DNA of 64,000 nucleotides from a virus: positions 23,573 through 87,572 of IMG/VR virus record IMGVR_UViG_3300028115_000009. One strand, written 5' to 3'. Position 1 is the first letter of the stretch; every line of letters starts with the position of its first letter. The notes beneath the pieces were generated by a model that made no database searches, was not told the DNA's origin, and saw only the letters and a program-made list of their open reading frames with translations. The position numbers and the translations under genes are program-made. Positions 9,128 to 64,000 of this stretch are shown piece by piece.

Positions 9128-10556
9128 CACAGTAAACAATATAACAATAGTAGGTGGCGGAACAAGTGGATGGCTAACTGCTGCTTATCTTTTAAAGAAT
9201 ACAGCCTGTAATATAACTGTTGTTGACAAAGAAGTTGGAACGCCTGTTGGAGTTGGAGAAGGCACGTTATTAGGTTTTAAACATTTCTTAGCAGAATGCG
9301 GATTTAAACAAGAAGAATGGTTTGATGCTATCGATGCAACATACAAAGCAGGCATTTTGTTCCCTCAATTTAATGGCGATAAAAACTTAGTATGGCATCC
9401 GTTTACATTAAATATGGATTATAGCAAATACGATGCCAATGTCTACGAAGCGTTAACATATATTGAACAAGAAAAAATTAACGAATTAATGATGTTTTTT
9501 AATATAAGTTTAGAAAACAAAGTAGACATTAATAATTTGAATTCTGCATATGCAATGCACATCGATTGCAGTAAGTTAGTTATTTGGTTACAAGAAAAAA
9601 TATTATCACGTATTACTTTAATTAAATCTGAAGTAGTTGCTATTAATCGTACAGACAATATCATTAATCATCTTACTCTTAAAAACGGTGATACAATTAA
9701 TTCTGACTTGTTTGTAGATTGTACAGGATTTAATCAAGTACTACAACATAGTCCACAACGAACCGATCTTACTAATAGACTGTTTTGTGACACTGCTGTA
9801 GCCGGTCATGTTCCTTACATAGATGCAGAAGTCGAATGTATGCCTTATGTAGAATGTCCAGCAGTCGACCATGGATGGATTTGGAAAATTCCTGTCCGAT
9901 CGCGAACAGGAACTGGTTTAGTGTTCAATAGAAGTATAACAAGCATTGACGAGGCGAAACAATATCTATGCAAGCATTGGAATGATAGAATCACTCCAGA
10001 TGATTTAAAAGTAATAGACTGGACCCCGTATTATAACAAAAATATGTGGGACGGTAATGTTGTTGCTATAGGCCTAAGTGGCGGATTTATTGAACCGTTA
10101 GAATCTACTGGTATAGGATCTATTACTAATGCTATTGTATATTTGACGCATAGTATTAATACAGGATATTATAATGAATATGATATCGAAATATTTAATA
10201 GTACAATGAATGCGCTATATGAAGACACTATTGATTTTGTTAATATGCATTACATTTATACAGATAAAAATACACCTTTTTGGAATCATGTTAAAGAAAA
10301 TATCATTCCGTCAGAAACATATTTGTATTACAAAAATATAATAGAAGCCGGAACACCTATTAACTATAACGGAAAGGGTTATTTGTTTGGCGGCGCAAAT
10401 TGGATTTGTTGGCTGCTGCAATTTGAAAAGAATATAGGAAAAAATAAAAACATCGATGATGATATTGCAAATGAAATATTATCAAATTGGAGCGAGACTA
10501 TTTCCGACGTTGATAATAGTCAATATATTATTTCTCACTTACAGGCAATTAAATGA
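9120..10556 (+). CDS. Flavin-dependent (tryptophan-type) halogenase 1
   Basis: A 478-residue flavin-dependent halogenase of the PrnA family. Visible landmarks are the FAD-binding GGGTSGW (residues 12-18), GVGEGT (44-49), the catalytic lysine in ATYKAG (K76, cf. K79 of PrnA), the hallmark WxWxIP motif (WIWKIP, about 253-258), and FIEPLESTG with the catalytic glutamate near residue 325. These enzymes use FADH2, oxygen and halide to make hypohalous acid, which the lysine delivers to an aromatic substrate. Related halogenases occur in cyanophages, including the characterised VirX1. No flavin reductase is visible nearby. It overlaps hldE by eight bases and hldD by four, so it is co-translated with heptose enzymes. 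The substrate is unknown. Confidence 0.88.
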   Translation: MHNTVNNITIVGGGTSGWLTAAYLLKNTACNITVVDKEVGTPVGVGEGTLLGFKHFLAECGFKQEEWFDAIDATYKAGILFPQFNGDKNLVWHPFTLNMDYSKYDANVYEALTYIEQEKINELMMFFNISLENKVDINNLNSAYAMHIDCSKLVIWLQEKILSRITLIKSEVVAINRTDNIINHLTLKNGDTINSDLFVDCTGFNQVLQHSPQRTDLTNRLFCDTAVAGHVPYIDAEVECMPYVECPAVDHGWIWKIPVRSRTGTGLVFNRSITSIDEAKQYLCKHWNDRITPDDLKVIDWTPYYNKNMWDGNVVAIGLSGGFIEPLESTGIGSITNAIVYLTHSINTGYYNEYDIEIFNSTMNALYEDTIDFVNMHYIYTDKNTPFWNHVKENIIPSETYLYYKNIIEAGTPINYNGKGYLFGGANWICWLLQFEKNIGKNKNIDDDIANEILSNWSETISDVDNSQYIISHLQAIK

Positions 10557-11362
10557 AAATATTAATAACAGGTCACGAAGGATTTATTGGTAAAAATTTA
10601 GCGCCATTTCTTGACAAAGATAATGAGTTATTCGGATATGAATGGAATCCAGCCGCGTTGCCTGATGTATCTCAATATGATTGGGTTATACATTTAGGAG
10701 CAATTAGTGCAACTACTGAACGCGACATAGATAAAGTAATGTTGCAAAATTATGAATTTTCAAAGTGGTTGTTTAATGAGTGTAACACCAACGGAGTAAA
10801 TCTACAATACGCTTCGAGCGCAAGTGTATACGGCTCTAACACTGATTTTAGAGAAGACGCACCAAAGCAGCCCCAGAGCTATTATGCAACAAGCAAGTAC
10901 TTGTTTGACCGTTGGGTTATGCAACAAAAGCACGACATTATAGTACAAGGATTTCGTTACTTTAATGTATACGGACCGTATGAAGATCACAAAGGAAATC
11001 AAGCAAGCCCTATAACCAAGTTCTTTAAACAAGCAAAAGAAGAAGGCGTTATTACACTGTTTGAAAATAGTGACAAGTATCTAAGAGACTTTATATATGT
11101 AGGTGATTGTTGTAACATACATCGTTACATGCTCACAACATCTGAGAAAGGTATATTTAATATCGGTACCGGAGTTGCAACAAGTTTTCAAACTATTGCA
11201 GAATTAGTTGCAAAACGATTTAAAGCTAAGATTGAATATATTCCAATGCCTGATAATCTTAAAGGACAATATCAAGAATACACATGTGCAAACATAGAAC
11301 GTTTAAGTAATATAGTAAACATTAACTTCACAACACCAAAGGATTTTATAAATGGAAAATAA
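10553..11362 (+). CDS. hldD: ADP-L-glycero-D-manno-heptose 6-epimerase
   Basis: A 269-residue short-chain dehydrogenase/epimerase resembling HldD along its length. It has an NAD(P)-binding GHEGFIG (residues 7-13), HLGAIS.TTE (48-56), SSASVYG (88-94) and the catalytic YATSK (111-115). The HldD-specific FRYFNVYGP.E.HKGNQAS, GIFNIGTG.A.SFQ and EYIPMPDNLKGQYQEYT segments follow. HldD converts ADP-D-glycero- to ADP-L-glycero-D-manno-heptose, the sugar donor for LPS inner core. It is about 40 residues shorter than the 310-residue Escherichia coli enzyme, mostly at the C-terminus. The start overlaps the halogenase stop (ATGA). This is the strongest single indicator that the cassette makes ADP-heptose and not another nucleotide sugar. 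Confidence 0.9.
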   Translation: MKILITGHEGFIGKNLAPFLDKDNELFGYEWNPAALPDVSQYDWVIHLGAISATTERDIDKVMLQNYEFSKWLFNECNTNGVNLQYASSASVYGSNTDFREDAPKQPQSYYATSKYLFDRWVMQQKHDIIVQGFRYFNVYGPYEDHKGNQASPITKFFKQAKEEGVITLFENSDKYLRDFIYVGDCCNIHRYMLTTSEKGIFNIGTGVATSFQTIAELVAKRFKAKIEYIPMPDNLKGQYQEYTCANIERLSNIVNINFTTPKDFINGK

Positions 11363-11744
11363 ACAGCCAACACGGTTAAGCGGCGCAGTACAAAAAGGCT
11401 GGGGCTACGAATTAATTTGGGCTACTAACGACAAGTACTGTGGAAAGATTATGTTTTTTAATAAAGAAGGCATGAAGACCAGCATGCATTTTCACAAAGA
11501 AAAAGACGAAACATGGTTTATAAATAGCGGAAAATTTAAAGTACGTTATATTGATACTGCTGATTCGATGCTATATGAAAAAGAATTAAATGAAGGCGAT
11601 GTTTGGCATAACCCGCCATTAATGCCGCACCAATTAGTAGCAATGCAAGATGAATCGAGTCTAACCGAAGTGAGTACTCCAGATAGCGTAGAAGATAATT
11701 TTCGTATCGGCCCAGGAGACAGCCAGACTGCGAGTAGCAAATGA
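11352..11744 (+). CDS. Cupin, mannose-6-phosphate-isomerase-like
   Basis: A 130-residue single-domain cupin. Motif 1 is HFHKEKDETWFINSG, with metal ligands His46, His48 and Glu53. Motif 2 is GDVWHNPPLMPHQ, with His93. The opening KGWGYELIWA is typical of the type II mannose-6-phosphate isomerase / sugar-phosphate cupin group. It overlaps hldD by 11 bases with an AAAGGA site and overlaps gmhB by ATGA, so it is an integral operon member. Since no GmhA (sedoheptulose-7-phosphate isomerase) is visible, this cupin could supply an aldose-ketose isomerase step; that is a hypothesis. A role as a sugar epimerase or a simple binding protein is equally open. Confidence 0.75.
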   Translation: MENKQPTRLSGAVQKGWGYELIWATNDKYCGKIMFFNKEGMKTSMHFHKEKDETWFINSGKFKVRYIDTADSMLYEKELNEGDVWHNPPLMPHQLVAMQDESSLTEVSTPDSVEDNFRIGPGDSQTASSK

Positions 11745-12388
11745 GTAATTATAACATAGTATGGAGCAACGAAGTTAAGAAACAAGAGTATGTTCCTGTA
11801 TATGACAATATACATAACATTGCTCCTAAGTGTGTTGTAGGGTTAGATCGAGACGGTGTAATTAATGTCGACAGAGGTACTTACACGTATCGTCCTGAAG
11901 ATTTCAAACCTATAGACGGTAGCTTAGAAGCAATTGCTAAACTAAGACGAATGGGTCACAAAATTGCCATTATTACAAATCAAGGCGGAATTGGTAAAGG
12001 GCTATACACAGAGTCAGATGTTGACAAAGTTCATGAGTATATGTTTCAATTGTTAGGCGAAGCAGGTTGTCCAAGTATTGATGCATTATACTATAGCACT
12101 ACAAGTTTGCGAGAAGACAATTTTGCAAAACCCAATACTGGAATGTTCAAACGATGCCAGGACGAGTTCAAATACATTAAATTCAAACACGGATACTTTG
12201 TAGGCGATAAAATATCCGATCTTAAAGCTGCATTTAAAATGAGCGCAGTACCAGTCCTTGTACGCACAGGACACGGTGAAGAAACTATCAAAGAACTAAA
12301 CAAATTCAGTAATCAAAAGATAAAGAAAAAGACCATCATTTTTGACGATCTTTCTCAGTTTGTTGATTGGTTGGAAAAGAAAAATTAA
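11741..12388 (+). CDS. gmhB: D-glycero-D-manno-heptose-1,7-bisphosphate 7-phosphatase
   Basis: A 215-residue HAD phosphatase matching GmhB. The nucleophile loop is GLDRDGVINVD (Asp36 and Asp38), followed by IDGSLEAI, IITNQGGIGKGLYTE (the Thr/Ser and GmhB-type loop), KPNTGM and the acidic VGDKISDLKAA motif. GmhB removes the C7 phosphate from heptose bisphosphate between the two HldE steps. Two differences from the Escherichia coli enzyme are visible. There is an N-terminal extension of about 30 residues, and the zinc-binding Cys/His loop (CPHH...C.C) is absent, the equivalent stretch reading YYSTTSLRED. It ends the plus-strand operon and its last four bases overlap the convergent oxygenase gene. 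Confidence 0.85.
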   Translation: MSNYNIVWSNEVKKQEYVPVYDNIHNIAPKCVVGLDRDGVINVDRGTYTYRPEDFKPIDGSLEAIAKLRRMGHKIAIITNQGGIGKGLYTESDVDKVHEYMFQLLGEAGCPSIDALYYSTTSLREDNFAKPNTGMFKRCQDEFKYIKFKHGYFVGDKISDLKAAFKMSAVPVLVRTGHGEETIKELNKFSNQKIKKKTIIFDDLSQFVDWLEKKN

Positions 12389-12960
12389 AAAGTTATTGCA
12401 AAGTTTGCACTAATTGTAACTCTTGTAGCTTGGGTTTGATTATACGTTACATAATGATCCAAGCTACTCGGAAACAATACAACACTTCCTTCTGTCATTT
12501 CTGGCACATACTTGTTACCATATATTTCTGTTTGTAAATTAACCTTTTGAAAAAAGTCATTGCTTGATTTATAGAAAACAAAATCACCACTATTTTCTGG
12601 TTTTTCTAACATATACGCACAACTAATAACATTTGATCCATTAGAGTGGGCATGCACTTCTTGATGTTGTCCATAGTTGTATCTATTCATCCAAGCCTGG
12701 CATCCAATGGAATATTGTCCTATTCCGCCAATGTCGTTTACATATTTTTCAACTAACGGTAACACACTATTAAAAAACTTATCCCACGGCATTCCTGCAA
12801 TCGGTTCGTTGCCAAATGTAGAATCTGCATTGCAACTCCATCCTACAGGAGTTGCAAAATTAGCATCGTCTACCGAAAATGGAAGAAAGGCTTCTTTAAG
12901 CCTTTCGTGGTCTGGCATCTTGCATTCGTAAATTGGAGTTGAGAAGATCTCATTAATCAT
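12385..12960 (-). CDS. Putative 2-oxoglutarate/Fe(II) oxygenase, TIGR02466-like
   Basis: A 191-residue protein with the double-stranded beta-helix pattern common in marine phages. The opening is INEIFSTPIY. It continues with NRYNYGQHQEVHAHSNGSNVISCAYML, whose His pair supplies the first metal ligands, and VLFPSSLDHYVTYNQ..ATRVTISANF, where the last His and Arg bind iron and 2-oxoglutarate. Enzymes of this type hydroxylate or otherwise oxidise small or macromolecular substrates; the substrate here is unknown. The start overlaps the 3' end of the carbamoyltransferase gene by eight bases, so the two are probably co-translated. It ends in a four-base convergent overlap with gmhB. Confidence 0.7.
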   Translation of the reverse strand: MINEIFSTPIYECKMPDHERLKEAFLPFSVDDANFATPVGWSCNADSTFGNEPIAGMPWDKFFNSVLPLVEKYVNDIGGIGQYSIGCQAWMNRYNYGQHQEVHAHSNGSNVISCAYMLEKPENSGDFVFYKSSNDFFQKVNLQTEIYGNKYVPEMTEGSVVLFPSSLDHYVTYNQTQATRVTISANFAITF

Positions 12961-14773
12961 TTTTAATAGTTACCAGTTTGTTATACTCAGGTAGATACAA
13001 ATATTCAATATCGCTACTTGCTAATGTTCTAAATGCATCATCTAATGTCTCAACTAATGGCTCGCCTCCTAAGTTAAAACTTGTATTAAATACAATCGGT
13101 ACTCCTGTTTGCTTATAAAGTTCTTTAATCAAATCGTAGTAATGCGGATTTTGTTCACGCTTGACTGTTTGGATACGACATGTACCGTCTACGTGAATAA
13201 TGCTTGGAATTTTTTCTGCAATACCTTCTTGACAATTCATAGCATACATCATATGCGGAGATTCTTCTAGGCCGCGCATATCAAACCATTCATGTGCATG
13301 CTCATGCAAAATAGATCCTGCAAACGGACGGAAGTACTCTCTACGTTTAACTTTATTAACAAAGTCTTTACCATTAGGATCAGTTGGGTCATACATGATA
13401 CTTCTATTTCCTAATGCACGAGGACCATTTTCTGATTTACCTTGGAACAAAGTAACAATATTTCTTTCACCGTTTGTTTTACCAGTCATAAGATTAATGA
13501 CTTCTGTGTTAGTAATATCAGATAATTCTGCATTATATTTTTCTGCTAACGTATTAATTTCTTCGTCAGTATAGTTGTATTGCGGGCCTAAATATAAGCT
13601 GTCTGCAAATGCTCGCTGAGTGTCATCGTTAGTTAACATATGATAGCCAAATAATGCTGCGCCAATGCACGTACCTGCATCGCTACTTATTGGTTCAACA
13701 TAAAAGTTTATGCCTTCGCCTTCTAATTCTTTTAAGTACCAGTAGTTAGCAACACAATTTAAGCCATAACCTCCGCTTAATACAATGTTTTTAATTCCTG
13801 TATCTGCAACTGCTTTTCGAATTAAACGCAGTACTTCTGATTGACTTTGTGTTTGTACTGCGTATGCCATATCACGACGATTCTGCAAATACGTTAATTC
13901 GTCTTTGTCTTGAATGTCAGTAGGTGTAAGTAGATATTCGTAACGACCTTCGTTAATAACAGCGCCGTTTGGATATGTAGGAATAACTAAATTCCTATCA
14001 GTTGTACGCCACATGCCGCCATTGCCGTCTGAGTAAATAGCAGGAACATTGTCGTTTTTCTCTCCGTACGGGAACAGTCCCATAGTCTTACCAGCCTCAA
14101 TCGGCGACCAACCGCAGTATTGCGTAACCGCTTCATATGCCTTTGTAATGCCTGCTGTGTCGTCTATTATTAACTCGTGAGTTTCGCCAGTTTCGCCAAA
14201 ATTATCACTTGGCATATCTTCAATATGTGCAGCAGGCCAAGGGCCTCTTCCTCCTTGATGTTTATACACTGTTTTAAAATTAGCAGGGTATCTACAAGTA
14301 AAGATAGATTCTAATTCCCAGGTCATTTCAGTAGTTTCACCCATTTGCATAGGAATAAATGTTCCTGCACCATCTACAATAAGTGCCACTGCATTATCAA
14401 AACCTGATCTATAAAATGCACATGCTGCATGAAGTTTATGATGCATGTGTGCTAAATCAATTACTTGTGGATGATTATATGGATCTTCTGTTCGAGAAAT
14501 TAATCCCAACTTACGAGCTAATCCTGTATAAACATCGTCACCTGTAAAATCAACAGTTCCTGCTGTTTCTTTTAAAGGCTGTGTATGTGCGATAAACAAG
14601 TAATCTAATTTATCAGTGTAATCTAATATTTTAAGCATTGATGCGTAAGGGCCGCCGTCGTACTTATGTCTACTTAATCGTTCTTCTTCGATTGCAAAAA
14701 CAATTTCGCCATCTTTTAATAAGCAAACGCCTGAATTATGGCCCCTTGCTATTGCTGCTATCCACTGTGCCAT
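12953..14773 (-). CDS. O-carbamoyltransferase, NodU/CmcH/TobZ family
   Basis: A 606-residue full-length member of the carbamoyltransferase family. The N-terminal YrdC/Kae1-like part has ARGHNSGVCLLKDG, FAIEEERLSR and the metal-binding helix HHKLHAACAF (residues 111-120) leading to DGAGT. The C-terminal part has GKSENGPRALGNRS, EYFRPFAGS, DGTCRIQTV and PIVFNTSFNLGGEP, all family hallmarks. These enzymes make carbamoyl-AMP from carbamoyl phosphate and ATP, then pass the carbamoyl group to a hydroxyl, usually on a sugar or antibiotic. An AGGAGA site precedes the start. Lying between oxygenases and near a GT9 transferase, it probably carbamoylates the product of this island; the acceptor is not known. 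Confidence 0.9.
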   Translation of the reverse strand: MAQWIAAIARGHNSGVCLLKDGEIVFAIEEERLSRHKYDGGPYASMLKILDYTDKLDYLFIAHTQPLKETAGTVDFTGDDVYTGLARKLGLISRTEDPYNHPQVIDLAHMHHKLHAACAFYRSGFDNAVALIVDGAGTFIPMQMGETTEMTWELESIFTCRYPANFKTVYKHQGGRGPWPAAHIEDMPSDNFGETGETHELIIDDTAGITKAYEAVTQYCGWSPIEAGKTMGLFPYGEKNDNVPAIYSDGNGGMWRTTDRNLVIPTYPNGAVINEGRYEYLLTPTDIQDKDELTYLQNRRDMAYAVQTQSQSEVLRLIRKAVADTGIKNIVLSGGYGLNCVANYWYLKELEGEGINFYVEPISSDAGTCIGAALFGYHMLTNDDTQRAFADSLYLGPQYNYTDEEINTLAEKYNAELSDITNTEVINLMTGKTNGERNIVTLFQGKSENGPRALGNRSIMYDPTDPNGKDFVNKVKRREYFRPFAGSILHEHAHEWFDMRGLEESPHMMYAMNCQEGIAEKIPSIIHVDGTCRIQTVKREQNPHYYDLIKELYKQTGVPIVFNTSFNLGGEPLVETLDDAFRTLASSDIEYLYLPEYNKLVTIKND

Positions 14774-15834: not shown

Positions 15835-16830
15835 TTATACTGAGCAGCAACTATTGTCTTCTTCGTTAGGAGGAACATACTGTCCAGTAAATTTTGTAGA
15901 TCTTCCTAAGCGTTTTCTTACACTATGCAATACTGCTTGTGTTTGTTCTTTATTCATATCCATTACAGCATCATTTGCTCTATTAACTTCATCTTCCATA
16001 GTAAGACGAATAGGATCATATACACGTTTTCCTTCACCAATGTCAATGATATCAAATGTATCCGAACCAGGGTAGCTAATATTGACAGGGAACGTAGATC
16101 CTGTAATCACCGTTGCTGTTTTTCCTAAGCTCTTTGCAATATGTTGACCGACACTGTCTACTCCTAAAAAGTGATCTGAACAATCTATAACACTCGACCA
16201 TACACGTAGATCTGGAATCTGAGGCATTGCTACAGGAAACTTTCCAGTATCTTTTTCTTCAAATGCTACAGGAAATTCGCTCATTAAAATAATTGCATAT
16301 TCTTTTTTAAGATCGTTTACTATATTAATAACACTGTTTAAATGCATGCTTCGAGCAGTAGGATCAATTGTCATTTCTCCCATATTTTGAATTCCGCGAC
16401 CAAACGGCTGTACTACTAATACTTTATCAAAACCAGTCTTTGCACGTACTTCTTGTACAATGTTAAAACCTGATACCATCTCTATTTGATTTAAAACAAT
16501 TTTAGGGTCTTGTAATTCTCTTACACCTTTATTGTTAATAGCAATGTCAAATGCTTGAGCAAGATTACATTTTTGATTATAATACTCCCAAACACGATAT
16601 GGTTCTGGGCTTACAATATCACGATGTTTTAAGTGTTCTTGAAACAGTCCTTTGTGCCAATTATCGTATGCACGATTATGCAGTGTAGGATGTCCTTTGT
16701 AAAAGTCCATGCCGCCTTCGCATACAATAATAAAATCTTCATCAGTTTCTGCAAGTTTTTCAAATGCAGGAATTGAACTGATAACGCGGCCTGCACCTCC
16801 GTTTATAAAATACGCCTTTGGTCTTGACAT
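15835..16830 (-). CDS. GT9 (ADP-heptose:LPS heptosyltransferase)-like protein
   Basis: A 331-residue GT-B style protein. The N-terminus YFINGGAGRVISSIPAFEKL is a nucleotide-sugar transferase-like first strand and Gly-rich loop. In the C-terminal half, LVVQPFGRGIQ, then EYAIILMSEFP, and finally HFLGVDSVGQHIAKSLGKTATVITGSTFP follow the GT9 order (a D-S/G..H.A..LG....V..G.T.P donor site). GT9 enzymes such as WaaC and WaaF transfer heptose from ADP-heptose. Presence of HldE, GmhB and HldD nearby makes ADP-heptose the natural donor, though this is inference. The C-terminus ends in CCSV. A TATAAATA late box lies 64 bases upstream, and it heads a four- or five-gene minus-strand operon. Confidence 0.7.
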   Translation of the reverse strand: MSRPKAYFINGGAGRVISSIPAFEKLAETDEDFIIVCEGGMDFYKGHPTLHNRAYDNWHKGLFQEHLKHRDIVSPEPYRVWEYYNQKCNLAQAFDIAINNKGVRELQDPKIVLNQIEMVSGFNIVQEVRAKTGFDKVLVVQPFGRGIQNMGEMTIDPTARSMHLNSVINIVNDLKKEYAIILMSEFPVAFEEKDTGKFPVAMPQIPDLRVWSSVIDCSDHFLGVDSVGQHIAKSLGKTATVITGSTFPVNISYPGSDTFDIIDIGEGKRVYDPIRLTMEDEVNRANDAVMDMNKEQTQAVLHSVRKRLGRSTKFTGQYVPPNEEDNSCCSV

Positions 16831-16949: not shown

Positions 16950-18431
16950 ATGAATAAACATATAAACAGTATAACAGTACTCGGAGGCGGTACAGCTGGA
17001 TTAGTATCTGCACTCATACTAAAGAAGTCATTTCCAGAAATTAATGTAACAGTTATACGATCATCTGATATCGGTATAATCGGTGTCGGTGAAGGATCAA
17101 CAGAACACTGGTCTGAGTTTATGGAATTTATGAATATTAACGCACGTACTCTTATACAAGAAACAGATGCTACCTTTAAGTCAGGAATTATGTTTAAAAA
17201 TTGGGGCGGCGAAGATTACTTACAAAGTATCGGTGATGGATTTAATATTACTCACAATGGCTATCCTTATATGTACGGACATCAAATTAGTCAAAATAAA
17301 AGTCCAAAAGAGTTAGCAAGTCCGCTTGCTTGGCACAGTAGAGCAAATGTATGGTTCTTAGGACAAGAATCTACTCAAGTACAACAATATCATTTTAATA
17401 CAAATAAACTTAATACATTCTTAGAAAATTTAAGTAATGATTATAATATAAACATCATTGACGACGAAATTATTAATGTTAATTCAAACGAAAATGGAAT
17501 TGTTAGTTTAGAAGGCAAACAACAATTATACGAATCAGATTTTTTTATTGATTGTACTGGGTTTCGCCGAGTATTAATGAACGAGTTAGGGTGTGAATGG
17601 GAGTCATATTCTAAATACTTAAAAATGAAATCTGCAATAGTTTTTCCAATTGAATTTGAAAAAGATGAAGAAATACCTTTGTGGACACTTGCACAAGGAA
17701 TGGATGCTGGGTGGATGTTTAGATTGCCAGTGTGGGGACGATACGGAAACGGTTATATATTTGATAGTGACTTTATCACAGCAGACGAAGCACATGCCGA
17801 AGTTAACAAATATTTTGGTCGAGAAATAGAAATTAGTAAACACATAAATTTTGATCCAGGAGCATTGAAAGATACATGGATTAAAAATTGTGTTGCAATC
17901 GGACTTAGTGCAAGTTTTGTAGAACCGTTAGAAGCAAGCTCTATCGGAACCTCAATACAACAAGCATTTTTGTTAACTGAACATCTTATAAATTACAACG
18001 ATACCAGCATAAAAGATTATAATGCAGATTGCAATGACATATTAACAAATATAAGAGATTTTGTTATTTTACATTATTTAGGAAATCGAACTGATACAGA
18101 TTTTTGGAAAGCTGTATCAGAAACTGAATTACCAGATTCACTGACTTCAAATCTTAGTAAATGGAAAAACACACTTCCTTCTGAAAAAGATTTTTCTAAA
18201 GTTACTGACAAAATATTGTTTAGTCATTTCCACTATATTTTAATAATGCACGGTTTAGGGTTATTCGACATTAATAATATTGCACATGAATATAAAATGC
18301 GAGTGCCGTATGACAAACAGTTAGAAGCAGAGCATACTATTACTGAAAACGCAAACGCACCGTATACTACTATACCGCATAAAACAATGTTAGAAGTATT
18401 ACGGACTATGCGTACTTGGCCTAACTTTTAA
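16950..18431 (+). CDS. Flavin-dependent halogenase 2 (divergent)
   Basis: A 493-residue relative of the tryptophan halogenases. FAD site GGGTAG (residues 12-17), GVGEGST (45-51), catalytic lysine in ATFKSG (K77), and FVEPLEASSIG with the Glu near residue 323 are all present. The WxWxIP hallmark is altered to WMFRLP (about 254-259). It differs from halogenase 1 over most of its length, so the two probably take different substrates and are not recent duplicates. It lies alone on the plus strand between two minus-strand operons, and its 3' end overlaps the convergent methyltransferase gene by 11 bases. No reductase partner is visible. It belongs to the same tailoring island by position. Confidence 0.85.
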   Translation: MNKHINSITVLGGGTAGLVSALILKKSFPEINVTVIRSSDIGIIGVGEGSTEHWSEFMEFMNINARTLIQETDATFKSGIMFKNWGGEDYLQSIGDGFNITHNGYPYMYGHQISQNKSPKELASPLAWHSRANVWFLGQESTQVQQYHFNTNKLNTFLENLSNDYNINIIDDEIINVNSNENGIVSLEGKQQLYESDFFIDCTGFRRVLMNELGCEWESYSKYLKMKSAIVFPIEFEKDEEIPLWTLAQGMDAGWMFRLPVWGRYGNGYIFDSDFITADEAHAEVNKYFGREIEISKHINFDPGALKDTWIKNCVAIGLSASFVEPLEASSIGTSIQQAFLLTEHLINYNDTSIKDYNADCNDILTNIRDFVILHYLGNRTDTDFWKAVSETELPDSLTSNLSKWKNTLPSEKDFSKVTDKILFSHFHYILIMHGLGLFDINNIAHEYKMRVPYDKQLEAEHTITENANAPYTTIPHKTMLEVLRTMRTWPNF

Positions 18432-19068
18432 AATACCAGTCTTCGTTTTCAGTATTAAAATCTGTAAAAAGGTTGTATCCGTTTTTAATCATTAAATCGT
18501 GAATCAATTGACGATTACTGGTAAATTCGTGTTCAATTGTAAAACATTTTACATTATATTTTTTAAAATCAAATGTTTTTAATATTTCGTATTCGCTGCC
18601 TTCGGTGTCAATACTAATATAGTTTATGTCTGTAGGGGCTTGATATAACGCTAATAAATCATTTAAAGTAATAGACAATACATTAATAGTCATAAAACTT
18701 TTATCAATATCTGTATCAATAGTGCCAAGATGCTTTTCTAATCCTGATCTAAAATTCCATCCGTAAAATTGGTTTTCATCTACACAAAACTTAAAAGGTA
18801 ATATTTTACCAGTCTCGTTGTATACGCACAATGTACTAACAAAGTTATCTCTACAGTTCATTAGGCTTTGCTGAAATGCAGGATTTGGATCTACACAAAT
18901 ACCTCTCCATTTGTAAAATTTTTCTAAGATAAATGTATTACTTGCTGTAATACCATCTGATGCTCCGATATCTACAAAAAAACCATTTTCTGTATATGCA
19001 CTACGATCAAGTGCAAAAAAATCTTGACCATTTTCTGATATTTTTAAATTGCTGCCTTCTGGTCCCAT
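18421..19068 (-). CDS. FkbM-family methyltransferase
   Basis: A 215-residue SAM-dependent methyltransferase of the FkbM type. The sequence shows GFFVDIGASDGITASNT (SAM-binding loop, about residues 29-45), GICVDPNPAF (the acidic ribose-binding strand), and INYISIDTEGSEYEIL near 140-160, the FkbM signature. These enzymes O-methylate sugars, amino acids and polyketides. An AAGGAG site precedes the start, and the gene follows the oxygenase-like gene by one base. Methylation of the island's sugar product is the likely job, but the acceptor is unknown. Confidence 0.85.
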   Translation of the reverse strand: MGPEGSNLKISENGQDFFALDRSAYTENGFFVDIGASDGITASNTFILEKFYKWRGICVDPNPAFQQSLMNCRDNFVSTLCVYNETGKILPFKFCVDENQFYGWNFRSGLEKHLGTIDTDIDKSFMTINVLSITLNDLLALYQAPTDINYISIDTEGSEYEILKTFDFKKYNVKCFTIEHEFTSNRQLIHDLMIKNGYNLFTDFNTENEDWYFKS

Positions 19069-19069
19069 T

Positions 19070-19669
19070 TTATTCTCCTTGATGTTTATTGCTAAAATTC
19101 ATTGCTATCATTATTCGTTCATTATCAGTTTTTTGTTGATCAACTTTATGCAAAAGATAACTTGGAAATATTAATAGCATTCCTGTTTCTGGTTGTACAC
19201 TAACTTGATTAGAATTAAACTCAGTTTTAATAGATTTAACTCCCATGCCCCAACCTGTATCGATAATATTTTTATTTAAAAAACATATAGGTGCATCAGT
19301 ATGTTCTGCTTGTAGATAATATACGGCACTCCACAAACAATCAGGATGCGTATGTGCTTCGTGATATCCGTACTTTTCTATAATACTAAACCAAGAATTT
19401 AGATAGTTAATTGGTTCTAAAAATCCAGCAAAGTTATTGACAGAATTCACTTCAGTTAAAATAAAATCTTTTACATCTTTTAATAGAGGATCGTCTATTA
19501 TATTGTTATCGTTATAAAAATCAGTATAATTTCCTAATGGTGCATTTTCCATTAATGAAATATCTTTTTTGCTTTTTAATTTGTTAATTATAGCATCTCG
19601 AGTATTATTTTCGATAGTAAAAAAAGACCTAAACAATAATGATGAAAATATTTGTGCTGGTTCTGCCAT
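19070..19669 (-). CDS. Putative 2OG/Fe(II) oxygenase, TIGR02466-like
   Basis: A 199-residue member of the same phage oxygenase family as the 12385-12960 gene. It has NSWFSIIEKYGYHEAHTHPDCLWSAVYYL with the first metal His residues, and LIFPSYLLHKVDQQ..NERIMIAMNF with the distal His and the 2-oxoglutarate-binding Arg. The fold is a double-stranded beta helix. The start has a GAGG site overlapping the end of the SGNH gene. Its substrate is unknown; context with FkbM and SGNH proteins points to tailoring of a glycan or small molecule. Confidence 0.7.
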   Translation of the reverse strand: MAEPAQIFSSLLFRSFFTIENNTRDAIINKLKSKKDISLMENAPLGNYTDFYNDNNIIDDPLLKDVKDFILTEVNSVNNFAGFLEPINYLNSWFSIIEKYGYHEAHTHPDCLWSAVYYLQAEHTDAPICFLNKNIIDTGWGMGVKSIKTEFNSNQVSVQPETGMLLIFPSYLLHKVDQQKTDNERIMIAMNFSNKHQGE

Positions 19670-56170: not shown

Positions 56171-56180
56171 GTATTTATAG
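56171..56180 (-). promoter_or_regulatory. Perfect T4-type late promoter for the 1624-residue fibre gene
   Basis: CTATAAATAC on the minus strand, 20 bases before the start, with AGGAGTAGGGC leader. It lies within 12 bases of the upstream gene's stop. Confidence 0.75.
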
Positions 56181-58681: not shown

Positions 58682-59860
58682 TTACTGGAATGATACGCTT
58701 GCGTAAGCAGTCATACCAACTTTAGCTAGGTAATCAGCAGCATTGCCAAGTGACGATGCTGTGTTGTTTAGCTCAACATAACCATAACGTGTCATGAATG
58801 ATACGACTGGTTCGAATGTTGCTGGATCTAGTACAACACCTGAAGACATTAGCGGGATGTATGGGCAGTAGAATGCCGCTGCATCTGACTCGCTAGCACC
58901 TTTGTAACCGATAAGTACGTCAGCACTATCAGCAGCATATGTGTTAACATAAACTTTCATAGCGTTGTTCAATGTACCAACCATCTTAGTGTTAGTTGGA
59001 GCTTCGAATGTACCTTCAGTAGTACGAGCAAACGCTGAAGTAGTTGCAGATTGTAGGATTGTTAACGCGAATGGCGATACAACAGCCCAGTTACCTGCGC
59101 CACGACGTGTGCGCTGTGCAATCTTGTTTGCTTCACGGTTGATTAGAACAGCTAGTGCAGCATGCTCGTCACCAACGAAAGTAGCAGTACCAGAAACAGT
59201 AGATTGATCATACTGTGAACCAGCTGTACCAGCAAGAGTGCTTAGTGAACCAAGAACTTCTTGGTCGATTTCAGCAGTAATCTCTTGAGCAAGTGCTGCC
59301 ATGATTTCTGCTTCAACGTCAATACCGTGCATTGACTGTGCATCCTGAGCAGCTTCAAAAGTCCAACGAGCTGATAGCTTGCGTGACTTAGCTTCTACAG
59401 TTTGCTTCAAGATCTGGATGCTTAGTTTATTACCAGCAGCACCTTCTAGTGCAGCAGTTGCGGCTGCTTTACCAGTTGAAGTGTTACCTGAATATGCTTC
59501 AGCAATCTTGAATGGGCTTAGTGCCTCTTCACCAGCTACGGCGCCTGATGCACCTGAGCCAGCTGTGTCGCTATAGCGAACACGTAGTGTGTGGATTTGA
59601 CCCACTGGACCAGTCATAGGCTGAACACCAACTAACTCGTTAGCAATAACGGTTGGCATTACACGTCTAATGACAGGTAAAATAACTCTGTTAAGAGTTG
59701 CGACATTACCGGCTGATGTTGCACCTGCAGTTGCACTCTCTGAAAGATACTTGCGAGTATTTTCCAAAGTAGTTGCCATTACAGATTTCTTAGTGCCACT
59801 TAGGCCTTCGAGTAGTGCGCTTTTTGTATCAGACCAGCGGCTTTCTAGTAGTTCCGACAT
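58682..59860 (-). CDS. gp23: Major capsid protein gp23
   Basis: A 392-residue homologue of T4 gp23, the hexameric shell subunit. The N-terminus MSELLESRWSDTKSALLEGLSG begins a scaffold-facing pro-region. A likely gp21 cleavage site is Leu-Ser-Glu|Ser at residues 39-42, giving a mature N-terminus in the AGATSAGNVATLNRVILPVIRRVMPTVIANELVGVQPMTGPVG block that is characteristic of all T4-like capsids. GAGNWAVVSPFALTIL, the AMKVYVNTYAADSADVLIGYKG strand and YCPYIPLMSSGVV, PATFEPVVSFMTRYGY near the C-terminus are also typical. T4 gp23 is 521 residues, the shorter form being usual for marine relatives. GGAGAA site; terminator immediately downstream. Confidence 0.95.
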   Translation of the reverse strand: MSELLESRWSDTKSALLEGLSGTKKSVMATTLENTRKYLSESATAGATSAGNVATLNRVILPVIRRVMPTVIANELVGVQPMTGPVGQIHTLRVRYSDTAGSGASGAVAGEEALSPFKIAEAYSGNTSTGKAAATAALEGAAGNKLSIQILKQTVEAKSRKLSARWTFEAAQDAQSMHGIDVEAEIMAALAQEITAEIDQEVLGSLSTLAGTAGSQYDQSTVSGTATFVGDEHAALAVLINREANKIAQRTRRGAGNWAVVSPFALTILQSATTSAFARTTEGTFEAPTNTKMVGTLNNAMKVYVNTYAADSADVLIGYKGASESDAAAFYCPYIPLMSSGVVLDPATFEPVVSFMTRYGYVELNNTASSLGNAADYLAKVGMTAYASVSFQ

Positions 59861-59870
59861 AGTTTTCTCC

Positions 59871-60962
59871 TTATTTTAAACCAGCTAAACGTCTAATGTC
59901 AACGACATTATCATCTTGCATTGAACTAACGTTAATTTGTGTATCTCTGTTGCCTGTGATTTCTTTTGCCTCTGATAAGACTGCCTTCTTTGCCGGAGTA
60001 TGTCCATCAATAACTGATGGTAGGTACTTGTCAAAAGACTTTTGAAGTCTATCGGTTTGTACTGATTCCAGTAAATCTGTCATGATTTCTCTTTGACCTT
60101 TATTCAAAGGTGCTAAGAGTTCATTAAGTCTGTTTTTGCGTTCAGCAATAGCTGTTATACGCTTAATTTCGGCTTCTTTAGATTCTGCTAATACTTTTGC
60201 TTTAGTAGCAAATGCTTTAGCTTCAGCTAACTGCTTGTCTTTCATAGCAACAACTTGCATTAATTTTGCAGTTTCTGAATTTTCGTTCAGATGGCTTGTT
60301 GCATATTCTGAAGCAAATGCTTCGAACAATTTACGACCGAAATCGTTTCTACGTGCTTCTTCAATATCTTCTTTAAGCTGAGTCATTTCTCCCTTAAGAG
60401 TTGATTCAACAATAGCAGATACTTTAGCTGCACTCTTTGCGATAAAAGTTTGTTTAACTTCTGCAAATTTTGTTTTAGCTTCTTTAATAAGTTTTACCTT
60501 AGTTTCAGCTAAGTCTTTTTTGTCTTCGTGGAATTCTGCAATTTCTTTTGCAAGTGCATCGACGATGAAATTCTCAAGCATGCTAAACTTGCTAGCAATT
60601 GCCTTTTGATCTTCATGCAATTCAGAAACTTCTTTTGCTAGTGACTCAGTAACAAAGCGCTTCATTAGGTCTGCGTTTTCACGCATAGCTACTGCATACT
60701 TTGCTTTTGCTTCTGCTAGTTGTTTGCGATCTTCTGCAAACTCAGCAATTTCTTCTGCAAGACGCTCAGAAAGCATAGAGTCGATAGCTTCAACCATAGT
60801 TGACTTATCATGCTCATACTTCTTTGCAAATTCTTCACGTAACTCAGCAGTTACCTGCATTTTGTTTTCTTGAATCTTTGCATTCCATGCGCCTTCGATG
60901 TCTGCACGTACTTCTTCTGATACTACATCATTTTCGAAAAGTGTTTTAAGTGCTTCCAACAT
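59871..60962 (-). CDS. gp22: Prohead core scaffolding protein gp22
   Basis: A 363-residue, highly charged protein that is almost entirely helical: Glu/Lys/Ala coiled-coil segments (VTAELREEFAKKYEHDKS, repeated EIAEF(H)EDKK(D/Q)LAE units, about residues 45-200). This repeat of an (A)EFHED.K.LA motif three to four times is like the scaffold cores of T4-like phages. C-terminal LSEAKEITGNRDTQ supplies a gp21 site (Leu-Ser-Glu|Ala). T4 gp22 is the major prohead core and is degraded during maturation. It sits in the standard place between gp21 and gp23 with an AAAGGAGAC site. Confidence 0.9.
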   Translation of the reverse strand: MLEALKTLFENDVVSEEVRADIEGAWNAKIQENKMQVTAELREEFAKKYEHDKSTMVEAIDSMLSERLAEEIAEFAEDRKQLAEAKAKYAVAMRENADLMKRFVTESLAKEVSELHEDQKAIASKFSMLENFIVDALAKEIAEFHEDKKDLAETKVKLIKEAKTKFAEVKQTFIAKSAAKVSAIVESTLKGEMTQLKEDIEEARRNDFGRKLFEAFASEYATSHLNENSETAKLMQVVAMKDKQLAEAKAFATKAKVLAESKEAEIKRITAIAERKNRLNELLAPLNKGQREIMTDLLESVQTDRLQKSFDKYLPSVIDGHTPAKKAVLSEAKEITGNRDTQINVSSMQDDNVVDIRRLAGLK

Positions 60963-60975
60963 ATTTTGTCTCCTT

Positions 60976-61599
60976 TTATTGGAGTCGACTGATTATATTA
61001 ATCAGCGATTCTTTTAAGTACTTCTGTGCCTTAGTGTCGTGTTTTGTTGCCTGTGCTAATTCATATGCCTTATACCCTCCACGAGCATTCATAAGATGCT
61101 CATAGATTGGTGTAGGATATGCTCCAGGGGCGCTAGGCTGGGCCACGACGTCCACTGTGATAATTTCGAAGTCGCTAACGTTACCGCTACCGTCTTCACT
61201 AACATTTCCAGATCCACGTGATGAAACACCTAGTTTCACACCGCTTTCAAGCATAGTGCGAACTAGGTTTCCCATTGGAGTTGGTAATATCTTTAGTTTT
61301 CCGTAACCGTTTGGGCCATCCATCCAGCATTCGCTGATCATATGACTTACACGATCCAAGTTAATGTTAAGACCTTCTGGATGATCAACTTCACCGAGTA
61401 CACTGTATCCACCCTCGATTTGTTCGCTGAGAGTTTTGACAGCCCTGCCAATTTCATTCACAGGATACACACGCTGGTTAGCGTTGCGTACTCCGCCCTG
61501 TATACAAATGCCCTTCATATACAGGTCTTTTCCTTCGTTAGCAGACTCAACGACAATTTTCGCTTGGTCGAAACTTAGGTGTTCTCGTAAGTTTTTCAT
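60976..61599 (-). CDS. gp21: Prohead protease gp21
   Basis: A 207-residue homologue of the T4 prohead serine protease, which cleaves capsid and core proteins after (I/L)-x-Glu. Landmarks are NANQRVYPVNEI (about 39-50), GEVDHPEG with the catalytic His73, and KLGVSSRGSG around residues 123-132 with the catalytic Ser, the same His-Ser order as T4 gp21. The C-terminal half has FEIITVDVVAQPSAP, a conserved feature. It precedes gp22 with 13 bases between, and carries an AAGGAAG site. The preferred substrates in this phage probably include gp22, gp23 and, by motif, several internal proteins. Confidence 0.92.
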   Translation of the reverse strand: MKNLREHLSFDQAKIVVESANEGKDLYMKGICIQGGVRNANQRVYPVNEIGRAVKTLSEQIEGGYSVLGEVDHPEGLNINLDRVSHMISECWMDGPNGYGKLKILPTPMGNLVRTMLESGVKLGVSSRGSGNVSEDGSGNVSDFEIITVDVVAQPSAPGAYPTPIYEHLMNARGGYKAYELAQATKHDTKAQKYLKESLINIISRLQ

Positions 61600-61613: not shown

Positions 61614-62522
61614 TTATTTGCCGACGATAGATTTTTTATTGTCAGCAGTCTCTGGCTTGCCCTTTTTCTCAGCGCCGTGGCCAGGTTGTGATGCTGTTTT
61701 AGTAGCACCTTTAGCGCCAGGAACATTTACGTTTCCAGCGTTATCTTCTTTAGCAGTAGGAGCAGCTAGTCCACCTTTAGTGCCTTCGCCTTTGCTTACG
61801 CCTGCTTTTGCGATGTTAGCAGTTGTACCGCCCATGTCGTTTTTACCAGCAACAGTTGACTTAGTGTTAGCACCGTTGTCGCCCATTTTAGCAGTTACTT
61901 TTTCAACATACTCGCGCATTTGCTCGCCTGCTGTTTTAGGAGTCTTTGACTCTTCAACTTCTTCATCAGCTGCTTCAAAGTTAAATGATTCTTCTTCTGG
62001 CTCTTCTTCGCCTTCGTCTTCTTCACCTTCTTCGTCGCCCATGTCCATGTCCATGTCGCCGTGCTCTTCTTCACCAGCTTCACCAGCCATCATAGCTTCA
62101 AATTCTGCTTTTAATTCTTCAAGTGCGTCTTCTAGGTCTTCAACACGATCTTCCATGTCGCCTTCTTCGCCTTCTTCGTCGCCCATGTCCATATCTGAAC
62201 CCATGTCGTCAGCAGCAGGCGGCTGCATGTCGCCCATCATTGCGTCCATTGGATCTGCTTCAACTTCAAATTCGTCTAGGTTAAAATCTTCGTCGAGCTC
62301 TGCGTCATCTTCTGACTCGTCGACTTCTTCGTCGTCTGCTTCATCAACTTCTTCATCAGTTGACTCTTCAACTTCGTCATCTTCTAGATCTGATTCTAGT
62401 AGTGATTCGTAAATATCACGAGACTTTTCAACTACAATCTCGTGGAATAATTCTTCTGCGCCTGCTTTGTCTTCATTGACAAGTTTTTCAAGCATCTGTT
62501 CAAACTTATTTAAATCTGCCAT
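61614..62522 (-). CDS. Acidic prohead core protein (T4 gp67/68 position)
   Basis: A 302-residue protein. Residues 1-42 (KFEQMLEKLVNEDKAGAEELFHEIVVEKSRDIYESLLES) match the N-terminus of prohead core proteins conserved in marine T4-like phages. Residues 43-185 are extremely acidic, with two copies of a DMDMGDEEGEE unit separated by a helix VEDLEDALEELKAEFEAMMAGE. The last 110 residues switch to Lys/Gly/Ala/Thr-rich and appear disordered. The gene is in the position of T4 genes 67-68 between gp20 and gp21, so it is probably a minor core component, cleaved by gp21 in maturation. An AGGAGA site and a late box lie upstream. Confidence 0.75.
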   Translation of the reverse strand: MADLNKFEQMLEKLVNEDKAGAEELFHEIVVEKSRDIYESLLESDLEDDEVEESTDEEVDEADDEEVDESEDDAELDEDFNLDEFEVEADPMDAMMGDMQPPAADDMGSDMDMGDEEGEEGDMEDRVEDLEDALEELKAEFEAMMAGEAGEEEHGDMDMDMGDEEGEEDEGEEEPEEESFNFEAADEEVEESKTPKTAGEQMREYVEKVTAKMGDNGANTKSTVAGKNDMGGTTANIAKAGVSKGEGTKGGLAAPTAKEDNAGNVNVPGAKGATKTASQPGHGAEKKGKPETADNKKSIVGK

Positions 62523-62618: not shown

Positions 62619-63335
62619 TTAGGGCAGAGAGTACATTTTTTTGAATGTATCTACAGTAATATGTGTTAAGTTAGCTATTTTATTTAGTTCATCAGGAATA
62701 AAATTATCTGGTGCTATTACTCTTACATACTTAATTCTACCGTTTGATTCTATAACATTTTTAGTTTGACGAAGCCAATTACCGTAATAAGTTGCAGTAT
62801 CGTTACTACGTTTATAGTTTTCAGTATCAGCATAAATGTTATTAAAAGTTTTTCCGCTGTTATTACCTTTGTAATCAAACCCTAAAATGTATATTGTTGT
62901 GTAGTTGTGTTGACTTGCTAACCATAATGCGGTAGGACCGCTGCTCCATCCTTTACTAGGTTGAAAGAAATTAAATCCTTCCATCGATGAATAAAGTTTA
63001 TTTGGATTTGTCCATACTTGATTAGTCTTTTGATATCCTGCTTTATTAATTTCTACAATCATTTTTGTATCAACGGCAATTAGATAATCAGGCGAGAAAC
63101 TTCTATACAATGCATTACATCCGTACACTTTTCCTAGTTTCTGCAGAGCGATAGGATCTATCCCATCTCTACTTGTGCCATTACCTAACACAAAAGAAAT
63201 TGGAGTTTTTAATCGAAGGTGTTCCTGTATAGGAATAGATGATACAATTTTTGAGGCAGCTTTTTCTGCTTTTGCAGCAGCTTTTAATGCTTTGTATTGA
63301 TCTTTTGTATATTGAGTTTTATCTATCTTTGCCAT
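62619..63335 (-). CDS. Rossmann-like protein, possible glycosyltransferase (DUF115/GT29-like)
   Basis: A 238-residue protein inside the head operon. The N-terminal 45 residues are Lys/Ala-rich and helical. The core starts ISFVLGNGTSRDGIDPIALQKLGKVYGCNALYRSFSPDYLIAVD (strand - Gly loop - helix - strand). It continues with WSSGPTALWLASQ, YILGFDYKGN, a Tyr/Asn stretch and IKYVRVIAPDN. The pattern (V.G.G.S....(D)..L...G.(V)(Y)..N..YR...PDY....D) is that of DUF115 and some sialyltransferase-like families; assignment is by pattern only. Proteins of this kind occur among head genes in marine T4-like phages. The gene overlaps the previous stop (TAATG). Function is unknown; a virion glycosylation role is a guess. 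Confidence 0.55.
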   Translation of the reverse strand: MAKIDKTQYTKDQYKALKAAAKAEKAASKIVSSIPIQEHLRLKTPISFVLGNGTSRDGIDPIALQKLGKVYGCNALYRSFSPDYLIAVDTKMIVEINKAGYQKTNQVWTNPNKLYSSMEGFNFFQPSKGWSSGPTALWLASQHNYTTIYILGFDYKGNNSGKTFNNIYADTENYKRSNDTATYYGNWLRQTKNVIESNGRIKYVRVIAPDNFIPDELNKIANLTHITVDTFKKMYSLP

Positions 63336-63583
63336 TACACTCCGGCAGCGGCTGCTTGTGCTGCTATTCCATACATTTGTCTAACGAAATCTAATTCACC
63401 AGCTTTCTCAGTTGTATGTAGCTCACTTGCTTTCCTTGCACGGTTTATTTGGCGTAGGGTAAGACGTGTTTTACGAGTGTCGTTCATTTTAACAATACTG
63501 TCGTCGTACTGAGGATCATATCGATCATCCTCAGTAGGTTCGATTGTTTCTTTGTCAAAGTAAAATAGCTCACGTAATATCAT
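63335..63583 (-). CDS. Small head-operon protein (T4 gene 67 position)
   Basis: An 82-residue protein, ILRELFYFDKETIEPTEDDRYDPQYDDSIVKMNDTRKTRLTLRQINRARKASELHTTEKAGELDFVRQMYGIAAQ. This sequence type is conserved just after the portal gene in marine T4-like phages, where it holds the place of gp67, a prohead core component. An Asp-rich N-terminal part is followed by a basic helix (RKTRLTLRQINRARK). Ends with Ala-rich tail and TAATG overlap. The start lies just beyond the gp20 stop, with a TATAAATA box but no ribosome site before it. Confidence 0.65.
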   Translation of the reverse strand: MILRELFYFDKETIEPTEDDRYDPQYDDSIVKMNDTRKTRLTLRQINRARKASELHTTEKAGELDFVRQMYGIAAQAAAAGV

Positions 63584-63587
63584 ATTG

Positions 63588-63595
63588 TATTTATA
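63588..63595 (-). promoter_or_regulatory. Perfect late box overlapping the gp20 stop and abutting the next start
   Basis: TATAAATA on the minus strand contains the gp20 stop codon and ends four bases before the ATG at 63583, with no ribosome-binding site. T4 geometry would start the transcript at 63582, next to the A of the start codon. The overlap with a stop codon means the match may be coincidental. Confidence 0.45.
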
Positions 63596-64000
63596 TCGTT
63601 TGTGCCGTTGCTGCTCCGCCCGCCGGTGCTGCTCCTGGTGCTGTTCCTGTAGCAGTCTCTGGTGGTGCTGCTTCTCCGCCTACTTCAGGCTCGCCTTCGT
63701 CTGGTAAAATGTCTTCAGCGCCGTCAATGTCTGCACTAATGCCTGCACTACTAATACCAGCTGTACGCATTTCTGCGCTTGCGTCTTCACCGTTAGCAGT
63801 AATGTTTTCGTCGTTTTCTTCTTTCCATAGACGTTCATTTTCTGCAACTTCTTCTTCACTCATACCTAAGAAACGCATCATAGCAAAGCGATTTGAAATA
63901 TAAGGTATAGCACTCATTTGTGTAAATGTTGGTACACGAGCATTGTCAAGTTCTGATTGACGATATGCTGCAAAGTTTTGCGGAGTTTCAAATTCAAGAT
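63591..64000 (-). CDS. gp20: Portal protein gp20, C-terminal part (runs off window)
   Basis: The last 136 or so codons of the portal vertex protein; the gene enters from beyond base 64000. The in-frame sequence from the window edge reads EFETPQNFAAYRQSELDNARVPTFTQ, then SAIPYISNRFAMMRFLGMSEEEVAENERLWKEE, followed by a Glu/Gly/Ala-rich tail. This is the typical gp20 C-terminus of marine T4-like phages, in which the FAAYRQ(S/A)ELDN stretch is diagnostic. Gp20 forms the 12-subunit DNA entry ring and starts head assembly. It heads the minus-strand order gp20 - small protein - Rossmann-like protein - acidic core - gp21 - gp22 - gp23. Confidence 0.93.
   Translation of the reverse strand, partial: LEFETPQNFAAYRQSELDNARVPTFTQMSAIPYISNRFAMMRFLGMSEEEVAENERLWKEENDENITANGEDASAEMRTAGISSAGISADIDGAEDILPDEGEPEVGGEAAPPETATGTAPGAAPAGGAATAQTI

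Follow-up and report, generated by a model that had tools for sequence, protein, structure and literature searches.

A candidate glycosyltransferase gene at a fixed place in the head operon of T4-related jumbo phages, with alleles replaced between near-identical phages

Maf glycosyltransferases are described in PMC11339370 as protein-directed, three-domain enzymes that modify Ser/Thr of flagellin with nonulosonic acids and can also use CMP-linked Neu5Ac and Kdo as substitutes for their native donor. Sialyltransferases of family GT42 (PF06002) include CstI, CstII and the Pasteurella multocida protein 9c08, and PMC4202792 gives the general base as His188 in CstII and His202 in CstI. Among phages, mycobacteriophage Che8 gp110 and Corndog gp38 are phage-encoded glycosyltransferases needed for capsid glycosylation (PMC12363180); their likeness to the gene described here would be one of proposed function. 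A study of aquatic ‘moraphages’ reports four putative core glycosyltransferase groups, and the place in the head operon considered here does not appear in its available text (PMC12619734). The literature searched, largely without subscription journals, contained no description of a glycosyltransferase gene at this place or of its replacement.

The DNA analyzed was a stretch of 64,000 nucleotides (the window) from an IMG/VR virus record of 87,572 bases. Its end carries a T4-type head cluster, transcribed in the order gp20, p82, GT, acid302, gp21, scaffold-position ORF and gp23, in which GT denotes the candidate glycosyltransferase gene:

63591-63998, minus strand: C-terminal part of portal gp20, truncated at the window edge (Pfam Portal_T4, E 4.3e-9)
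63335-63583, minus strand: p82, the 82-aa ORF preceding GT
62619-63335, minus strand: GT, 238 aa, with a predicted GT42/DUF115 fold (ORF list, profiles, model)
61614-62522, minus strand: acid302, an acidic 302-aa ORF at the core-gene position
60976-61599, minus strand: gp21 prohead protease (Pfam Peptidase_S77, E 7.7e-25)
59871-60962, minus strand: ORF at the scaffold (gp22) position (PHROG 10922, E 7.4e-81, function unassigned)
58682-59860, minus strand: major capsid protein gp23 (Pfam Gp23, E 6.1e-98)

The GT reading frame was confirmed in the window; it starts with an ATG that overlaps the p82 stop by one base (TAATG). It is a real gene under purifying selection rather than a chance ORF, because dN/dS was 0.04-0.25 in eight of ten locus pairs; of the remaining two, one was identical in GT and the other had a dS of only 0.01 (ratio 0.23). 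An earlier note on this DNA had placed the gene between a prohead component and the acidic core gene. The position between p82 and the acidic ORF stands; ‘prohead component’ is not shown by family search, which assigns p82 to PHROG 13986, where no function is attached. At the p82 place, phage PA5oct has an ORF annotated as ‘structural protein, ESI-MS/MS’. At the other end of the cluster, the scaffold-position ORF matched the scaffold family PHROG 237 at E 0.02 only. The minus strand of the window contains five copies of TATAAATA, the late-promoter motif of T4, including one at 63588-63595 just before p82 and one at 56172-56179 before a 1624-aa ORF. By gp21 identity, the nearest jumbo phages are Sinorhizobium phage Phosso (63.6%), PA5oct-type Pseudomonas phages (54.1%), Agrobacterium phage Atu_ph07 (53.3%) and Salicola phage SCTP-2 (51.9%); megablast of the 4-kb head region matched no phage record.

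Relatives were collected by two IMG/VR searches, one of which gave 371 confirmed stretches encoding a relative (80 of them kept) and the other at least 600 rows. The V.G.G.S and PDY...D layouts that had drawn attention to the protein are both present, as FVLGNGTSR (residues 48-56) and PDYLIAVD (residues 82-89). In a set of 75 sequences (the window protein and 74 relatives, six shorter sequences dropped), long motifs were unvarying; G51, N52, G53, S55, D83 and D89 were each found in all 75, P82 in 64 and Y84 in 67. The stretches of the protein referred to below are as follows:

63201-63335, minus strand: Lys-rich N-terminal extension, approximately residues 1-45, with an M-x-K-x-D-K motif
63168-63185, minus strand: GNGTSR, residues 51-56; G51, N52, G53, S55 and R56 invariant in alignments of 30 and 82 rows
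63102-63125, minus strand: YGCNALYR, residues 71-78; C73, N74 and R78 invariant in both alignments
63060-63080, minus strand: IAVDTKM, residues 86-92; D89 invariant in both alignments
62925-62951, minus strand: GWSSGPTAL, residues 129-137; aligns with the TSG stretch of CstII
62874-62888, minus strand: ILGFD, residues 150-154; aligns with GID of CstII
62763-62792, minus strand: TYYGNWLRQT, residues 182-191; stretch near the GT42 general-base His, here N186-W187

N186-W187 does not vary in the 30-row alignment and occurs in at least 90% of the 82 rows. Across the 82 diverse rows, whose alignment numbering is converted to residue numbers by adding 40, 17 columns are invariant, including N52, N74, D89, D154, N165 and N166. 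Within the N-terminal extension, [LI]xE after residue 20 occurs in 36 of the 75 proteins and is not conserved; a search of the window for the N-terminal motif pattern returned the GT protein as its sole match.

On its own, the window protein matched PHROG 30607 (E 2e-31), a family without attached function that all 30 aligned members also match, and a PHROG sialyltransferase family (E 0.0017); it had no match in Pfam (even at E≤10), NCBIfam or the PDB. Profiles reached further. Nine of the ten PDB chains matched at E≤10 by a profile of 30 relatives were GT42 sialyltransferases (E 1.3e-4 to 8.1e-3), the tenth being a non-GT42 chain at E 1, and all nine matches of an 82-relative profile at E≤1 were GT42. 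A bacterial GT42 domain, itself matching CstII at E 3.9e-19, aligned with the two phage profiles in hhalign at E 4.3e-6 and 7.1e-7 (probability 92 for the latter). Pfam CST-I (PF06002) matched 14 of 30 family members and MptE-like (DUF115, PF01973) matched eight of 30 (best E 4.9e-4), both at E≤0.1 and neither in the window protein. A bacterial DUF115 profile, built from only five near-identical sequences of the 25 fetched, aligned with the phage family at E 0.054 (probability 1). The GT family, PHROG 30607, includes proteins of Pelagibacter phages HTVC008M and Mosig EXVC030M (HMM E 7.9e-37, 4.5e-16 and 3.3e-28); unlike GT of the window, these are encoded close to gp59 and to carbamoyltransferase or dioxygenase genes rather than among head genes.

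An AlphaFold2 model of residues 41-238 computed from 82 rows had a pLDDT of 95.1 and a pTM of 0.91. It replaced a first model from 29 rows (pLDDT 76) that was too weak, giving mixed folds by both Foldseek and VIA-align, with 9c08 and the Maf glycosyltransferase 5mu5 already high among them. In VIA-align, the top of 50 rows was 5mu5 (Z 12.3, rmsd 4.1, 172 of 198 residues aligned), then CstII (Z 10.5, 175 aligned) and CstI (Z 10.4, 172 aligned), the latter two at rmsd 3.8; archaeal HPPK (8sd5, Z 9.4), 9c08 and thiamin pyrophosphokinases (8.9), SteA (8.4) and human sialyltransferases (7.9) came next, and other folds began at 6.8. With neither model did Foldseek match a PDB entry at E≤0.001; for the 82-row model its top rows were other folds at a probability of about 0.6, and the best relative was HPPK (E 2.2e-3, probability 1.00). 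The case for the fold therefore rests on VIA-align, profiles and motifs. Against predicted viral proteins the model gave 16 matches at E≤0.001, mostly unnamed, with one DUF115 and one MptE-like protein among them. Together, the profile comparisons and the model show a predicted GT42/DUF115 (Maf) fold and homology to those families. The guess of a DUF115/sialyltransferase-type Rossmann protein was thus right, and the profile search and modelling proposed as its check, once run, returned a sugar-nucleotide-enzyme fold.

The structural neighbors also raise the reading that GT is another nucleotide-using enzyme of the superfamily, either a pyrophosphokinase (MptE/HPPK or thiamin pyrophosphokinase) or a transferase with modified DNA or some small molecule as its substrate. 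The Z scores of 8sd5 and the thiamin pyrophosphokinases, the first place of HPPK among relatives in Foldseek, the MptE-like matches in eight of 30 members and the location of the pelagiphage genes near gp59, away from head genes, would all fit it. Sequence profiles, however, match sialyltransferases and not kinases, the Maf and GT42 alignments score higher and extend over 172-175 residues versus 132, and the fixed place in the head cluster described below suggests a head-related substrate. We consider this reading rather unlikely.

Aligned on CstII, residues N52, N74, S132-G133 and D154 fall on its GNG, RCN, TSG and GID motifs. GT resembles CstI, CstII and 9c08 in profile similarity, fold and GNG/CN/SG/G-x-D motifs. 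Unlike those enzymes, the phage protein is shorter, and R129 and Y156 of CstII (numbering derived in this analysis) fall on G129 and K156 of the window protein and are not conserved as aligned. The general-base His is not conserved either, with no alignment spanning the exact H188 counterpart: His occurs in at most 56 rows of any column of the 82-row alignment and exceeds 30% only at residues 103, 143 and 225. Filing GT under GT42 proper was rejected for this reason. The likeness to Maf lies in the best structural match and in the G-x-G-x-S and A[IV]D(P) motifs; Maf has three domains and the phage protein is a lone domain. The invariant D89 in AVD/AVDP resembles AIDP of the five DUF115 proteins, a likeness of motif only, as the profiles align poorly. 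Judged by these alignments, the family is related to both GT42 and DUF115, with a putative pocket of its own.

The place of GT was compared across 155 loci from the two GT-baited IMG/VR searches, representing 147 contigs (8 present twice). Within the reach of each contig, all 155 show the same order and strand of gp20-p82-GT-acid302-gp21-gp22-gp23, and GT lay among virion structural genes in all of them to the same extent and in 55 of 55 with both flanks. Because the first bait was GT itself, the search was repeated with gp21, a bait that returns close relatives only: 55 of 80 loci held both p82 and the acidic gene, and all 55 had GT; GT is also present in six of the remaining 25, while the other 19 start downstream of it. 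GT occupies the same place in a sister clade whose proteins lack the Lys-rich N-terminus. Tandem doubling of a GT-like gene was seen in ten loci (L051-L053, L059, L061-L064, L067 and L068), and two long records (G008 and G014) contain a second, more distant copy.

The cultured jumbo phages PA5oct, CBB, Vibrio 2.275.O and SCTP-2 share with the window a portal gene, a small ORF (approximately 73-80 aa), one ORF, the protease, a scaffold-position ORF and the capsid gene; unlike the window, their slot between the small ORF and the pre-protease ORF is empty. In Phosso and Atu_ph07, the stretch is instead occupied by other genes. The GT family HMM found nothing at E≤0.01 in 86 Phosso/PA5oct-type loci (L163-L248), many of them not long enough to cover the slot; both p82 and gp21 are present in 24 GT-less loci, which were eligible for a gp21 tree. 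In that tree (105 rows from 202 after removal of near-copies, 85 with GT and 20 without), GT presence needs one change, with support 99/96, under a midpoint root, with an unsettled bootstrap and some long branches. One gain and no sampled loss would therefore be the simplest reading. Searching genome contigs gave four relatives, all beside phage head genes and thus phage sequence binned with bacteria; the loci concerned (L084, L085, L086 and L087, from MAGs labeled Neomarinimicrobiota, Rickettsiales and Betaproteobacteria) carry the head cluster or part of it. A recent bacterial donor was sought with PF06002 in 398 genomes of one phylum, which gave two matches, one of them over the cut-off.

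A fixed place among head genes could also mean that GT is a head-assembly or prohead-core protein that has kept the fold and lost catalysis. The Lys-rich extension encoded next to an acidic core gene and the unconserved GT42 His are compatible with such a part. Its demands sit badly with the 17 polar or glycine columns that stay invariant over 82 rows, relatives outside the head cluster included, with a sister clade that has no extension, and with frequent allele replacement (below), which would be odd in a part that has to fit conserved partners. We regard a purely structural role as improbable. An active glycosyltransferase directed at the host surface or another host target, located in the head cluster by chance, seems to us equally improbable: GT42 enzymes do act on lipooligosaccharide and the family is also present outside the head cluster, but chance does not readily account for one place across a whole lineage, coupled to p82.

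The ADP-heptose made by an accessory island of the window had been proposed as a possible donor for GT. The island contains the following genes:

7985-9127, plus strand: HldE-like gene with both domains (NCBIfam E 1.2e-79, below the curated cut-off)
9120-10556 and 16950-18431, plus strand: two genes of the tryptophan-halogenase family
10553-11362, plus strand: ADP-heptose epimerase-like (HldD-like) gene (NCBIfam E 3.4e-73, below the curated cut-off)
11741-12388, plus strand: GmhB-like gene (NCBIfam E 8.3e-43, below the curated cut-off)
12385-12960 and 19070-19669, minus strand: two 2OG-Fe(II) oxygenases
12953-14773, minus strand: carbamoyltransferase
18421-19068, minus strand: FkbM methyltransferase

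The HldE-, HldD- and GmhB-like genes make up an ADP-heptose pathway. A carbamoyltransferase gene also adjoins the GT relatives of Pelagibacter phage HTVC008M. A 331-aa ORF of the window (15835-16830, minus strand) matched an NCBIfam heptosyltransferase III model at E 0.0037 and 16.4 bits, far below the cut-off, with no Pfam match and no convincing PDB match; it is a possible user of ADP-heptose.

That GT itself uses ADP-heptose gains from the presence of this pathway and from full-length HldE-like enzymes in four of 13 long GT-holding records, with partial matches in two more. The other nine records have no full-length HldE match, which weighs little as the records are fragments; GT9 (PF01075, heptosyltransferase) was found in none of the 13, and the GT protein has no GT9 match in Pfam at E≤10. 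The characterized relatives of the same fold use CMP-linked ulosonic acids, according to PMC11339370 and PMC4202792. The proposal was weakened accordingly, and we hold it to be highly improbable. A CMP-sugar synthetase family gene was present in one of the 13 records (G004, the record of locus L123; 9001-9558, minus strand; PF02348, E 1.8e-20).

Comparison of near-identical loci revealed that GT alleles are replaced. Per 100 bases, L013 and L007 share 94-100% identity over the stretch from portal to p82 and 95-100% in the acidic gene and gp21, and only 66-81% in GT, with both breakpoints at the GT borders. The dS values were 0.01 for the portal C-terminus, 0.04 for p82, 0.01 for acid302 and 0.08 for gp21, versus 1.15 for GT. 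Each version was seen in assemblies from several metagenomes (L007, L008 and L009 versus L012-L015; seven IMG numbers), so chimeric assembly is unlikely. Among nine loci, the L007 allele is nearest to that of L006 (0.88 at the DNA level) and the L012 allele to that of L005 (0.86), while p82 and acid302 of L007 and L012 are 0.99 alike. L013 and L007 also differ strongly in the gene that precedes the portal (688 and 710 aa, difference at approximately 900-2650), except in its C-terminal part; the PA5oct ORF at the corresponding place is annotated as a structural protein (ESI-MS/MS).

The L100/L135 pair showed the same pattern (dS 1.50 for GT, 0.00-0.13 for the other genes). It recurred at greater depth between the window and L001, where dS was 1.10 for GT, 0.21 for p82 and 0.17 for gp21 and acid302 had diverged too (0.91), and likewise at greater depth in L375/L379, L152/L159 and L159/L347. 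L272/L273 gave it with a saturated value.

Two scans placed these cases against the neighboring genes; in both, the swap counts are small and the pairs not independent. At the DNA level (both neighbors at least 97% alike, the gene below 90%), GT was swapped in eight of 123 locus pairs, which are six loci and one L007/L012 event, and the same criteria gave 0/173 for p82, 0/110 for acid302, 0/93 for gp21 and 0/104 for gp22. The second scan used 180 haplotypes from 265 loci and third-position identity (≥0.80 in both flanks, ≤0.60 in the gene). GT, flanked by p82 and gp21, was swapped in 6/18 pairs and acid302 in 1/9, with 0/11 for p82, 0/12 for gp21 and 0/17 for gp22; with the portal replacing p82 as left flank, GT fell to only 1/11. 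L007/L013 lies outside this count, L007 gp21 being incomplete, and the thresholds, set after the first swap was known, were one of three pairs tried (GT 1/7, 2/9 and 6/18). Fisher tests that treat the pairs as independent, which they are not, gave 4.6e-4 for GT against p82, gp21 and gp22 and 1.1e-3 with acid302 added. The converse pattern, one GT allele in clearly different backbones, was found in 0/118 and 0/123 pairs at the thresholds used. A search for a covarying acceptor among 62 haplotypes gave partial correlations of 0.01-0.20, the highest for the portal, and no neighbor stood out.

The swaps might reflect modular recombination of a neutral kind or fast local divergence, without selection for allelic differences. 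Modular recombination is usual in phages, the L013/L007 difference also takes in most of the gene before the portal, acid302 has diverged too between the window and L001, and the counts are small. On the other side, GT alone of the five inner head genes was swapped at the DNA level, even if by one event, and, in the nine-locus comparison, the closest counterparts of the L007 and L012 alleles sit in other backbones, which is not expected from fast mutation. For the swaps taken by themselves, we lean away from the neutral explanation while giving it considerable weight.

The reading that we prefer, with a probability of roughly 0.45, is that GT encodes a protein-directed glycosyltransferase particular to one lineage, with recombination exchanging its alleles. 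The gene would have become fixed once, between p82 and the acidic gene, in the head cluster of one T4-related jumbo phage lineage, and the start-stop overlap with p82 would have it made together with the head proteins. The probable donor is a host-supplied CMP-activated ulosonic acid, whose sugar the enzyme would probably transfer to a co-produced head protein or another virion protein, as Maf does to flagellin. CMP-Kdo would be the most widely available CMP-ulosonic acid in Gram-negative hosts. A host-made donor would make donor genes dispensable in the phage, which fits a CMP-sugar synthetase in one of 13 records. If the alleles have different specificities, homologous recombination within the conserved genes on either side would swap the GT allele with the rest of the head operon unchanged, and near-identical phages would come to differ in the protein modification. 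We infer the enzymatic activity, the donor, the acceptor and selection as the cause of the swaps, including that alleles are exchanged because different products are favored.

A more specific extension, which we think unlikely though worth stating, is that GT may act as a phage ‘serotype’ locus. Allele exchange would then give near-identical jumbo phages different glycans or glycosylation sites under negative frequency-dependent selection, with the selection coming from whatever recognizes the particle or its proteins.

GT thus combines a known fold, here predicted, with a new setting and an unusual exchange pattern. The gp23, p82 and acidic-protein masses are defined targets, and L007/L013 and L100/L135 are natural allele pairs. 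Few systems with glycosylated phage particles are known; if the preferred reading is true, a glycosyltransferase gene with replaced alleles in the head operon of an uncultured jumbo phage lineage would suggest that head proteins are under natural selection through being recognized.
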